From contig DLST01000006.1 of assembly GCA_002500745.1 (NCBI GenBank), forward strand, positions 88,095-152,094: DNA of 64,000 nucleotides. Direction: 5' to 3'. This stretch comes from Sphingobacterium sp. UBA7855 (GTDB taxonomy: Bacteria > Bacteroidota > Bacteroidia > Sphingobacteriales > Sphingobacteriaceae). A program made the position numbers and the translations under genes. Under the pieces are notes generated by a model. That model made no database searches, was not told where the DNA came from, and worked only from the letters and a program-made list of their open reading frames with translations. Of the stretch, positions 51,928 to 56,446 are shown piece by piece. Numbering within the stretch: position 1 is the stretch's first letter; every line of letters begins with the position of its first letter.

Positions 51928-52087
51928 CGCTATTTTTCTACGATAAAAAAGATTCTTAGCGCAGGAAGCGCGAGAAGTTTGAATATTAGATTTAATTGGT
52001 ATATCTTGTAAAAATAAGGTTGCATTGAATGAAAATTCGTATTTAATTGCAATATTTGGAATATATGATAAGGATGCATTTGGGATT

Positions 52088-53974
52088 ATGAGGATGAAAT
52101 TTTGGATAGGTTTACTTTTTTCTACCATGATCATGTTGGGGTGTCAACACCATAATGTTGAGCCTATTCCAATAAATCAATTTTTTTCTAAGCCTGAAAA
52201 ATCAAACTTTAAAATTTCTCCAAATGGTCGGTTTATAGCCTATATTGGTCTCGACAATCATTGCAAAAATATTTACTTGATAGATTTGATTCATCAGGAT
52301 AGCTCGAAACAGCTTACTTATCAAAATGATATTAATGTAAAATCTTTTGCATGGAACGATAACTCGAAAATTTCGTTTTTGACAGAGCAGTCCGCACAGG
52401 ATAGTTTACGTTTATATGCAGTGGATATCAATACAGAGAAAATTTGGCCATTGATCAAGCCGATCCGTGGTCGGTTTCGATGGATCCATACCATGACTAC
52501 CGGAGGTGATAGTTTTATAGGGGGGATGAATGATCGAGATTCTTCACTTTTTGATCTTTATCGGATTTATTTAGATGGTAGACCCCGGGAGTTGATTTTG
52601 CAAAACCCAGGAAATATGAGTTCTTGGGTGGTATCTAATGATGGGCAGGTAAGAGTAGCTGTAGCCAACGATTCTGTACAACAATCGGTACTATATCGAA
52701 GCTCCGATAACGAACCATTTAAGGAGATTATTCGCTGCGATGTTGAAAGTAGTTTTACACCATTGGGTTATAAGGATAATTCGAATGCTATCATTTATGC
52801 GTTATCTAATGTCAATCGCGATAAACTGGCTTTGATAAGCTATGATTTGGCAAATCAAAAAGAATTAGATGAACTTTTTAGCCACAAGGATGTTGACGTG
52901 AGCTCTGGGGGATATTTTACTGAACAGAATAAGCTGTTGTTTGTCAATTATAGTACCTCAAGGCAGCATAGACATTTTTTTGATGAGACTACCAAACAAA
53001 AGTACAACCAATTGGCAAAGCAGATTGATGGCTTTGAATATCAGGTATTGAGTACTGACAGTTCAGGTAATAAGATCATCATTAAAACCTACACCGATGT
53101 TAACCCCGGTGGTATTTACTTTTATGATTTTTCGACGCAAAAGTTGACAAAGTTAGCGGATAATAATTCTGATTTAAAAGATAAGGAGCTCTCTCCAAAC
53201 GAATATATCACGTATACCGCGAGAGACGGTATTCAGATCTCAGGTTATTTAACTTATCCTATACATTCTAATCGCAAAAACCTGCCGATGGTTGTCCTTC
53301 CTCATGATGGGCCTAACGGACGTGAAGTTTGGGGGTTCGATAATGAGGCTCAGTTTCTAGCGAACAGGGGCTATTTGGTTTTTCAAATGAACTATAGGGG
53401 ATCCACAGGTTTCGGTAAGAAGTTTTGGACTGCTGGATTTAAAGAATGGGGGGGGAAGATTCAGGACGATATTACTGACGGGGTGAAATGGTTAATTAAG
53501 GAGGGGATTGCTGATCGTGAACGTGTTGCTATCGTAGGGAAAGGTTTTGGAGGTTATTCGGCGCTGCACGCCGCTTGCTTCAATTCTGATTTATATAAAT
53601 GTGCCGTGTCTTATTCGGGTTATACCAATTTATTTACGTATTTCAGAGATATACCGCCCTATTTTAAATCGTATGTACAGAAAATGTATCAAATTGTTGG
53701 GAATCCAATACGGGAGGCTGAATTATTTAAAAACATATCACCGGTCTTTCATTCCGACAAAGTTAAAATACCGGTACTATTGGTACAAGGTGGAAAGGAT
53801 AGGTTTAGTTCGGTCACAGATGCAAATCAATTTGTACAGAAATTAAAGAATAATAACATTCCTGTGCAATACATCCTGAAAGAGGATGAAGATAGAACTT
53901 TTAAGCGTGATGAGAATGTCTTTGGTTATTATAATGAGTTGGAGCGATTTTTGGCGAAATATCTTGTGGACTAA
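52088..53974 (+). CDS. S9-peptidase-like lipoprotein lacking catalytic Ser and His (pseudo-peptidase)
   Basis: 628 residues from the ATG at 52088, which starts a lipoprotein signal (lipobox IMLGC); the frame is open from 52025. An N-terminal WD40/TolB-like beta-propeller (about 35-370) precedes an alpha/beta-hydrolase domain (about 385-628): LPMVVLPHDGPNGREVWGF, FLANRGYLVFQMNYRGSTGFGK, VAIVGKGFGGYSALHA. The nucleophile position of the usual G-x-S-Y-G-G-Y motif is Gly486 here, and the usual DEGHGF is DEDRTF, putting Arg603 at the His position. The Asp (QGGKD, Asp571) is kept. The protein should therefore lack peptidase activity. It lies 12 bp before a histidine kinase gene, suggesting a ligand-binding or sensing role. 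Confidence 0.85.
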   Translation: MRMKFWIGLLFSTMIMLGCQHHNVEPIPINQFFSKPEKSNFKISPNGRFIAYIGLDNHCKNIYLIDLIHQDSSKQLTYQNDINVKSFAWNDNSKISFLTEQSAQDSLRLYAVDINTEKIWPLIKPIRGRFRWIHTMTTGGDSFIGGMNDRDSSLFDLYRIYLDGRPRELILQNPGNMSSWVVSNDGQVRVAVANDSVQQSVLYRSSDNEPFKEIIRCDVESSFTPLGYKDNSNAIIYALSNVNRDKLALISYDLANQKELDELFSHKDVDVSSGGYFTEQNKLLFVNYSTSRQHRHFFDETTKQKYNQLAKQIDGFEYQVLSTDSSGNKIIIKTYTDVNPGGIYFYDFSTQKLTKLADNNSDLKDKELSPNEYITYTARDGIQISGYLTYPIHSNRKNLPMVVLPHDGPNGREVWGFDNEAQFLANRGYLVFQMNYRGSTGFGKKFWTAGFKEWGGKIQDDITDGVKWLIKEGIADRERVAIVGKGFGGYSALHAACFNSDLYKCAVSYSGYTNLFTYFRDIPPYFKSYVQKMYQIVGNPIREAELFKNISPVFHSDKVKIPVLLVQGGKDRFSSVTDANQFVQKLKNNNIPVQYILKEDEDRTFKRDENVFGYYNELERFLAKYLVD

Positions 53975-53986
53975 AGGCGGGCAATT

Positions 53987-55645
53987 ATGAAAGCAGAGAA
54001 ATATAGCTATCGAAAGAACTACGGATTATTGTTGATGTTTTTCATCGTAATCAGTGGCTTGTATATATTTGCCTTATTTCTTTCGCGTAGCTATACAGAA
54101 TCGCATATCAAAAATGAATTTACGAATAGAAAATCAGAGATATTTGATCAAACCTTAGTTCCTTTCAATGATTTTTTTCAAAATAGAATTCCTGAAGTCT
54201 CTTTTTATCAAGGTTTTTTGGACTCTGTTCAGGCGGGCAAATACGCTTATAGCATATTAAGTTCTTATCCGTTTGTCAGAGAGATTGGTTTTTTTGATTT
54301 ACAATTCAATAACGATCATAATTTAAATTATGGCTTTATCGTTAACAACCTCAGGATCCAACCAAAAACGATTACTTTTTTTACTGTTTCCAGATCTGGG
54401 CTGCATAAAAATACCATACGAGATCGCGGTCAAATGGGTTTACATTCTGAAGAGATCAATAATATTGGGGTAAAGTTGGCGACATATATTGACAAGTTGC
54501 AACCGAATGCCAAACTTTCTGATAAAGATATCTTAAAGGTTTTTTATACCATAAGACCTGGTCAGATTACCTATCTCAATATTCCGAGGGTCAACGATCT
54601 AATTGTTTATAAGTCAATTATGGAAGGTAATTTGGATCATACCGTTGGTTACGAGCAGGATATGTTTAATTTTCAGATTGATCCAATGTATCTGGAGGTT
54701 AAAAATAGCTATTCTAATCTTTATGAGAAAGTGGAGATCGTTCCTTTGGTAGGCGCGCCTATCACACCTGAAAATGACGAGATTTCAACCGAGATGCCCT
54801 TACCTGGAGCACTGGCCGACTATAAATTACTTTTTAGATCGAGCAAGAACTTTCTTTCCAAAGAAATAAATCGTAGTTTTTGGCCCGTATTAGGAGGCGT
54901 ATCGTTGATTTACATCATTTTAATTGCTATACTATATTTAATTTATAGAAATTTAGAAATTAACGGAAGACTTTTTAAATTGCAGTACGATTTCATCAAT
55001 AATCTTACCCACGAGTTTAAGACGCCAGTGAGTGTGATTAAGATTGCTGGAAATAACATCAAGAGTGCGCAGGTACTCTCTGATGAAGAACGTAAAATGT
55101 ATGGAAATATACTGGATCAGGAGGCAGATCGTTTAAATAACTTGATGAATAAGCTATTATCGTTTAGCCAGATCGAAAATAAAACGATAAAATTAAATAA
55201 AGAAGAAGTTGACTTGAAGATGTTTACGGAAAATCTAGTAGCTTCGTCAAGAATAAAATATTCAGATTTCAAGATTAGCACAAAAATTGATGTAAGGACA
55301 TCAATGCTTGCCGACCCGGTGTTGTTAAGCAGTGTGTTTCAAAATATGATTGATAATGCCTATAAATATTCTAAGGCGGGGCACAAAATACTAGATATTG
55401 CGATACAACAAAATAAGAAGAATTTTGTTATCACTTTTAAGGATGAAGGAATAGGAATAGAGAAGGCGGAGTTTAACAACATCTTCAAAAAGTTTTATAG
55501 AATAAAAAGTCAATATAATCAGCAAGGAAGTATTGGTTTGGGGTTGGCATTCTGTAAAGAGATTACTGAATTTATAGGCGGTGATATCACAGTAAAAAGC
55601 CAATTGGGACAGGGAACCACCTTTACCTTGGTATTTCCAGTTTAA
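53987..55645 (+). CDS. Membrane sensor histidine kinase
   Basis: 552 residues. First membrane helix about 13-33 (LLLMFFIVISGLYIFALFLS), a large periplasmic domain (about 34-302) with no family I recognise, a second helix about 303-325 (LGGVSLIYIILIAILYLIY), then HisKA with FINNLTHEFKTPVS (His342) and an ATPase domain with MIDNAYKYSK, DEGIGIE, F-K-K-F-Y-R and GLGLAFCKEI. It is 12 bp after the pseudo-peptidase gene and 102 bp before the response regulator gene, so the three probably work together. Confidence 0.93.
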   Translation: MKAEKYSYRKNYGLLLMFFIVISGLYIFALFLSRSYTESHIKNEFTNRKSEIFDQTLVPFNDFFQNRIPEVSFYQGFLDSVQAGKYAYSILSSYPFVREIGFFDLQFNNDHNLNYGFIVNNLRIQPKTITFFTVSRSGLHKNTIRDRGQMGLHSEEINNIGVKLATYIDKLQPNAKLSDKDILKVFYTIRPGQITYLNIPRVNDLIVYKSIMEGNLDHTVGYEQDMFNFQIDPMYLEVKNSYSNLYEKVEIVPLVGAPITPENDEISTEMPLPGALADYKLLFRSSKNFLSKEINRSFWPVLGGVSLIYIILIAILYLIYRNLEINGRLFKLQYDFINNLTHEFKTPVSVIKIAGNNIKSAQVLSDEERKMYGNILDQEADRLNNLMNKLLSFSQIENKTIKLNKEEVDLKMFTENLVASSRIKYSDFKISTKIDVRTSMLADPVLLSSVFQNMIDNAYKYSKAGHKILDIAIQQNKKNFVITFKDEGIGIEKAEFNNIFKKFYRIKSQYNQQGSIGLGLAFCKEITEFIGGDITVKSQLGQGTTFTLVFPV

Positions 55646-55747: not shown

Positions 55748-56446
55748 ATGAATAAAGACATCACTGTTGCTGTTATTGAAGATGATGAGAACTTACGGTT
55801 CTTGGTAAAACATCGATTGGAATCCGAAGGCTATCAGGTCATTCAAAGCGGAAATGGGAATGAAGCGGAAAGTTTGATTTTAGAAAAAAGGCCCGATGTT
55901 GTTTTACTGGACTGGATGCTTCCAGGAAAAGAAGGCAACGAGATCTGTGAAGATGTGCGCAAAGCGGGGTTTGAGAATATCATTATCATGATGACAGCTA
56001 AATCTCAAGATGTGGACAAAATTGAAGCGTACAGTTTTGGAGTGACTGATTACATCAGTAAGCCTTTCAATATGGATGTGCTTATCGCGATGATCGATAA
56101 CAAGGTGAAATTTTTCTTGCCGAAAAACAGTCCTGAAGTGTACAAGTTTGGTCAGACAGAACATCATCCGAATATTCATTCCTTGATACGTGACGGAAGG
56201 AAAGTTGAGTTGACTATTTTGGAAAACCGCATTCTACTTCATTTCCTACAGAATTTAGGGCGGGAGATTACACGTGAAGAATTAATGGAGGTTGTGTGGG
56301 GGTATAGCTCAAATGTCAACACGCGTACGTTAGACATGCATGTGGTTCGTTTACGAAAAAAAATTGAAACAAATCCGGACAAGCCACATTATCTACAGAC
56401 TGTGCGTGGACTTGGCTATAAATTTGTTGATGAAGAAGAGATTTGA
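55748..56446 (+). CDS. OmpR-family response regulator
   Basis: 232 residues. Receiver domain (about 4-118): acidic pair IEDDEN, phosphorylation site VVLLDWMLPGKEGN (Asp55), T in MMTA, K in ISKPF. C-terminal winged helix (about 135-230): LENRILLHFLQNLGREITREELMEVVWG, and the recognition helix TLDMHVVRLRKKI. Partner of the histidine kinase upstream. An 8-bp inverted repeat (55665-55672 with 55707-55714) in the gap before it may be a control site. Confidence 0.95.
   Translation: MNKDITVAVIEDDENLRFLVKHRLESEGYQVIQSGNGNEAESLILEKRPDVVLLDWMLPGKEGNEICEDVRKAGFENIIIMMTAKSQDVDKIEAYSFGVTDYISKPFNMDVLIAMIDNKVKFFLPKNSPEVYKFGQTEHHPNIHSLIRDGRKVELTILENRILLHFLQNLGREITREELMEVVWGYSSNVNTRTLDMHVVRLRKKIETNPDKPHYLQTVRGLGYKFVDEEEI

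Follow-up and report, generated by a model that had tools for sequence, protein, structure and literature searches.

YycH and YycI are extracytoplasmic accessory proteins that act on the kinase WalK and are not known to be related to peptidase family S9, and LpqB, which has a propeller, modulates the kinase MtrB. The MtrAB-LpqB system of actinobacteria, in which the lipoprotein gene adjoins those of the regulator and the kinase, is called a three-component system in the available portion of a report that also describes no significant effect of lpqB overexpression on product titre (PMC10714768). In animals, the S9-fold proteins DPP6 and DPP10, in which Asp and Gly replace the catalytic Ser, serve Kv4 channels, as set out in the sections available from one study (PMC4350108), and the fly DPP10 has been described, in the accessible part of another, as an ancillary subunit as well as an active peptidase, two functions reported not to depend on each other as far as the complex is concerned (PMC4873792). 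For prokaryotes, the consulted part of a survey of prolyl oligopeptidases presents the triad as highly conserved in its subtypes (PMC4522959), and the listings from searches of open-access literature contained no S9 pseudo-enzyme beside a bacterial sensor kinase. Pseudo-enzymes as signalling subunits are already known from animals; the conserved pseudopeptidase described here, which lies in a bacterial signalling operon, is real. This lipoprotein of the S9 (prolyl-oligopeptidase) fold is likely to be catalytically dead and to serve as an accessory, third component for the two-component system whose genes follow immediately downstream.

The window, a stretch of 64,000 nucleotides from Sphingobacterium sp. 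UBA7855, encodes on its forward strand an S9-fold lipoprotein of 628 residues (52088..53974, +), in which a propeller (residues ~38-370) is followed by an alpha/beta-hydrolase domain (~371-626), the architecture of peptidase family S9. Translation is taken to start at the ATG at 52088, the mechanically called open reading frame being longer (TTG at 52025, 649 residues), and Cys19 of the lipobox MLGC, read from the sequence, is encoded at 52142..52144 (+). Residues 415-626 match the Pfam domain Peptidase_S9 (PF00326) with an E value of 1.5e-38, and the best match among solved sequences is the acylaminoacyl peptidase 5l8s. Where the family carries its catalytic Ser in the motif G-x-S-x-G-G, and 5l8s reads GGSYGGY, the window protein has Gly486 (codon GGT, 53543..53545, +) within GKGFGGY (residues 484-490); where 5l8s reads DEGHGF, the site of the catalytic His is occupied by Arg603 (53894..53896, +) within DEDRTF (residues 600-605), and the alignment is ungapped at both sites. 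The catalytic Asp, Asp571 (53798..53800, +) within GGKDRF, is the sole triad residue to be kept. The first-pass annotation had reported these three residues in a frame open for 628 codons, and both points are borne out by the translation and by alignment with 5l8s and other relatives. The window protein differs from 5l8s and related S9 enzymes in lacking the Ser and the His, in being a lipoprotein and in belonging to a signalling operon.

In DPP6 and DPP10, which are inactive homologues of the S9B group, as here, the Ser is replaced within an otherwise preserved fold of propeller and alpha/beta-hydrolase, and the GKGFGG elbow of the window protein comes close to the GKGYGG reported for DPP10 in the sections available (PMC4350108). 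The likeness would extend to an auxiliary role and, on the evidence of the accessible part of the fly study, to activity that certain lineages have given up and others retain (PMC4873792). It has its limits: in sequence, the window protein matches the DPP6 and DPP10 chains weakly (E values of 7.4e-05 and 3.3e-05), DPP10 keeps its His-759 where the window protein has Arg (PMC4350108, same sections), and the animal proteins cross the membrane once and associate with an ion channel, whereas the partner here would be a histidine kinase.

That candidate partner is encoded outside the coordinates of the lipoprotein gene, in an operon with a histidine kinase and a regulator that is the main clue to function and was absent from the first-pass annotation. 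The kinase gene (53987..55645, +; 552 residues, with the Pfam domains HisKA and HATPase_c) starts 12 bp after the lipoprotein stop codon, and is followed by a syntenic gene for an OmpR-type response regulator (55748..56446, +; 232 residues, Response_reg and Trans_reg_C by Pfam). The order lipoprotein-kinase-regulator, with all three genes codirectional, is found in orthologues from the 22 genus codes of the family that were examined (g1, g25-g31, g35-g48), so that the conserved adjacency expected of a three-component system is present; of the 137 linked copies other than the query, 134 have the aligned kinase start no more than 50 bp from the lipoprotein stop, and all 137 have it no more than 112 bp away. 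Such adjacency is no proof that lipoprotein and kinase function jointly. In a structural model of the kinase, long helices span residues 12-47 and 287-360, and their hydrophobic parts are judged, on sequence and model together, to be membrane-spanning; the ~240 residues between them (about 48-286; 54130-54850) gave no Pfam match. The Foldseek matches listed for the kinase, led by the WalK-YycH model 9a5d, covered the kinase core and yielded no recognised fold for the periplasmic region (rmsd of 34-45 A on whole superposition). The nearest signalling architecture is that of MtrAB-LpqB, whose gene order, mtrA-mtrB-lpqB in the available portion of its report (PMC10714768), is a different one, and a Pfam search with the window protein at 0.001 gave no match to the LpqB family. 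Neither kinase nor regulator reached a curated NCBIfam cut-off among the best 25 matches of each (of 79 and of 94). Membership in MtrAB was rejected, as the scores fell below the cut-offs for both MtrB (110.6 of 450 bits) and MtrA (183.6 of 300), and so was assignment to the RprXY two-component system of Bacteroidetes, the regulator scoring 118.9 bits against an RprY equivalog cut-off of 370. When the kinase was searched as a single query at 1e-30 in 119 genomes of the class, full-length matches were confined to the 4 that belong to the family, the rest being mainly matches to the kinase core.

Within Sphingobacterium the loss of the two catalytic residues is not confined to the window copy. 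An alignment of 121 proteins, comprising the query, its own database entry and otherwise nearest relatives only (the best 120 of 4758 matches, all Sphingobacterium where an organism name is given), covers the sites in all but one incomplete protein (P0019), and in these 120 proteins Gly and Asp are invariant (120 each), while the His site holds Arg in 75 and Lys in 45. Among the 36 genomes of the genus that were searched, 33 carry a full-length copy, one (G001) a frameshifted copy and two (G002 and G033) partial ones. The 34 genus loci examined, a set that excludes G001 and G002, show the triad-site states Gly-Asp-Arg (24), Gly-Asp-Lys (9) and Gly-Glu-Arg (1); in other words, Gly is found in 34 of 34, Arg in 25 and Lys in 9, and the Asp is kept in 33 and replaced by Glu in one. 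Four of the 11 comparisons with the window copy were usable, the remaining 7 being saturated, and gave dN/dS ratios of 0.022, 0.031, 0.028 and 0.028, which are rough since the usable dS values were high (1.1-1.6); two of 12 other pairs were usable, at 0.028 and 0.022. Synonymous change therefore far exceeds non-synonymous change, and the lipoprotein is under purifying selection. Public databases name close relatives that lack both Ser and His (P0009 among others) S9 family peptidase or prolyl tripeptidyl peptidase precursor, peptidase names that call for a warning to annotators.

The family as a whole presents a more varied picture. A lipoprotein match at 1e-40 was found in 141 of 151 genomes of the family-wide sample. 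From 209 loci with a match, together with the query, 182 proteins distinct from one another beyond residue 80 were retained, of which 139 are kinase-linked (one being the broken G001 copy) and 43 unlinked. Ser, Asp and His are all kept in each of the 43 unlinked copies. The 138 intact linked copies, on the other hand, retain both Ser and His in 23 cases, His alone in 4, Ser alone in 1 and neither in 110 (3 of these being gapped at the His column), and the disparity between 23 of 138 linked and 43 of 43 unlinked copies is marked (Fisher 4e-25, a value that ignores relatedness); the Asp is kept in 105 of 107 non-redundant kinase-linked copies. Some of the unlinked loci, such as L214 and L239, end soon after the gene (162 and 200 bp), so that a linked kinase is possible there, and these fall outside the linked clade in the tree. 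Among the matches listed, 80 loci come from named organisms: Sphingobacterium has Gly with Arg or Lys; all 11 named Pedobacter rows have Gly, and their His site holds Asn, Phe or another residue; Mucilaginibacter has Gly in most named rows, Arg in two and Ser in one; Arcticibacter has Gly at the Ser site; and Olivibacter sitiensis keeps the triad. The triad is present in every examined copy of the genus codes g29, g31, g36, g39 and g44-g48; in g40 and g41 some copies have it and others do not. On the strength of their residues, the 23 linked copies with a triad may still cut peptides. Full-triad homologues in the same gene context, which, according to the first-pass annotation, would show the window copy to be simply mutated, do therefore exist outside the genus, yet that conclusion does not follow from them, because the loss is shared by 34 of 34 genus loci and the Ser state has changed several times in the family.

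These repeated changes are apparent from the phylogeny. A protein tree was built, with the site columns left out, from 12 of the 43 unlinked copies and those 107 of the 138 linked copies that lie below 88% identity, and in it the linked copies form one clade (SH-aLRT 100); in a tree of all 181 proteins, the 138 linked copies likewise group together with none of the 43 unlinked copies inside (FastTree support 1.0). The first tree implies at least 8 changes at the Ser site and at least 7 at the His site, although it has a few long rows and leaves 36 of 116 inner branches open, and a kinase tree, which covers 105 of these 107 rows, gives 8 and 6 changes, respectively. A single clade of all 86 Ser-less rows is rejected with a p-AU of 1e-169, a figure to be taken loosely because the group was named after the tree had been seen. 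Parsimony counts of this type do not tell loss from regain; loss is nevertheless the natural direction of the Ser change, since all unlinked relatives have Ser. Change of the nucleophile is thus repeated, and was observed only within the kinase-linked clade. The excess of Ser-less copies with His (4) over His-less copies with Ser (1) suggests that the nucleophile was usually lost first. One copy, L215 of Mucilaginibacter aurantiaciroseus, carries a Ser at the nucleophile site that its relatives lack and has Thr in place of the His, and could represent a regain or an independent path.

A comparison of alignment columns among 34 of the 43 unlinked copies, 20 live and 82 dead ones found only 8 columns whose conservation is shared by live and dead linked copies and absent from the unlinked ones, and no clear docking face among them. 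Ten columns are fixed in live copies and relaxed in dead ones: 495, 573, 578, 602 and 603, which lie within 10 residues of a triad position in the sequence, and 112, 183, 525, 535 and 559, which do not, 112 and 183 belonging to the propeller. This pattern fits the giving up of cutting, without proving it.

A Cys aligns with that of the lipobox in 137 of 138 linked copies, as opposed to 15 of 43 unlinked ones. An acid-rich stretch after this Cys is a surface-export signal of Bacteroidetes, and at least two acidic residues at positions +2 to +6 occur in only 15 of 137 copies; the near-universal Cys and the rarity of acid-rich stretches make a periplasm-facing anchor likely. The lipid anchor would then hold the lipoprotein in the periplasm, where the cleft between propeller and hydrolase domain could bind a peptide or an envelope component and leave it uncut; the bound or free state of the lipoprotein would influence kinase activity through the large periplasmic region of the kinase, and the change would be passed on to the regulator. 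The lipoprotein, in short, probably aids the kinase-regulator switch in sensing and is unlikely to cut anything. The computed support for its role as a third component consists of the fold, the missing Ser and His, the signs of purifying selection, the conservation of the operon, the repeated change of the nucleophile and a one-way dependence between lipoprotein and kinase, and the best reading of these observations is that the accessory role can do without cleavage, which disappeared more than once, as in DPP6/DPP10. The proposal in the first-pass annotation that the protein was kept as a binding protein and not as an enzyme gains from the purifying selection and from the disappearance of the S9 nucleophile and general base, binding being the part that is still surmised. 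With somewhat less assurance, although we lean towards it, a broader history can be proposed, in which Sphingobacteriaceae captured an S9 peptidase as an extracytoplasmic third component and came to sense without cleavage, catalysis being lost independently several times, mostly nucleophile first and in parallel to animal DPP10, because the sensing role no longer needed cleavage. If this is true, the family forms a natural series from an active peptidase-sensor to a pure pseudopeptidase co-receptor. In any case, both live and dead orthologues of a single protein are available here in a shared gene context, and whether the sensor needs cleavage, binding or neither can be asked directly.

The one-way dependence emerged from searches for the kinase in the ten family genomes that gave no lipoprotein match, along with six more. 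In genus g34, whose reduced genomes measure 1.7-2.0 Mb, five of six genomes have a full-length kinase and no lipoprotein match at 1e-40, and no kinase was found in the sixth (G136, 83% complete); at the three g34 loci examined, L270, L272 and L273, kinase and regulator genes occur without a lipoprotein gene, the upstream gene being unrelated and on the opposite strand. The g34 kinase groups as sister with the one from L139 (100/99), a locus that keeps both lipoprotein and triad, and the lipoprotein was thus probably lost secondarily in g34. The complete genome G123 (g44) and the incomplete G067, G068 and G100 have no lipoprotein match and only kinase-core matches, so that lipoprotein and kinase may both be absent from them. 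Since the kinase persists alone in g34, the lipoprotein is not obligatory for it, and gives the impression of an optional addition.

The same genomes offer an argument for the most durable of the alternatives, namely that the lipoprotein is non-enzymatic, has a peptide-binding or envelope function of its own, and is merely co-transcribed with kinase and regulator. In addition to the survival of kinase and regulator without it in g34, the lipoprotein has a higher dN than the kinase in 22 of 23 pairs (0.034 versus 0.008 for L048). Mere co-transcription, however, sits poorly with a linkage maintained across 22 genus codes of the family, when the upstream DUF983 gene is missing beside several orthologues from the genus, and with the lack of any kinase-less copy of the lipoprotein clade among the 181 proteins in the tree, the unlinked, triad-keeping homologues all lying outside the clade. 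We regard an independent lipoprotein as unlikely, though it deserves more weight than the other alternatives.

Much less credible is the persistence of hydrolysis through a rearranged site, for instance by another nearby Ser acting with Asp571. Asp571 and the elbow region are indeed kept, and a Ser (Ser491) follows the elbow in most members of the genus; this residue, however, is not conserved across the family, being Ile in most named Pedobacter rows, and is placed by the structural model in the helix beyond the elbow. Ser491 is on these grounds rejected as a replacement for Gly486; a nearby Ser in that role was a finding that, for the first-pass annotation, would tell against its reading. 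Moreover, the His site holds Arg, Lys, Asn, Ala, Thr, Phe and other residues, and with such variation no general base is conserved there.

We give similarly little credence to a scheme of two modes within one signalling role, whereby triad-keeping genera destroy a signal peptide and dead genera bind or buffer the same signal. It draws on the 23 linked copies that keep Ser and His in the same operon and on the precedent of fly DPP10, ancillary subunit and active peptidase, but the reported independence of those two functions weakens the parallel (PMC4873792, accessible part), and the scheme refines the third-component explanation more than it competes with it. A mutated, decaying copy, for which the frameshifted gene of G001 might be cited, has a negligible chance of being correct in view of the full-length copies in 33 of 36 genus genomes, the Gly with Arg or Lys at 34 of 34 loci and the dN/dS of 0.02-0.03 where usable; the first-pass annotation, too, had held that the gene is not decaying.

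Two further features of the region are of note. Three loci (L065, L066 and L069) have a second match to inorganic pyrophosphatase, in tandem, downstream of the operon. Within the frame of the window lipoprotein, a run of eight G (53448-53455), which encodes part of Trp454-Gly-Gly and is the only run of eight or more G or C in the window, is missing from the corresponding codons of all 18 relatives compared. The G001 copy, from the nearest genome among those searched, is frameshifted at this poly-G tract, and the tract could be a slippage hotspot, a site of phase variation or a sequencing error.
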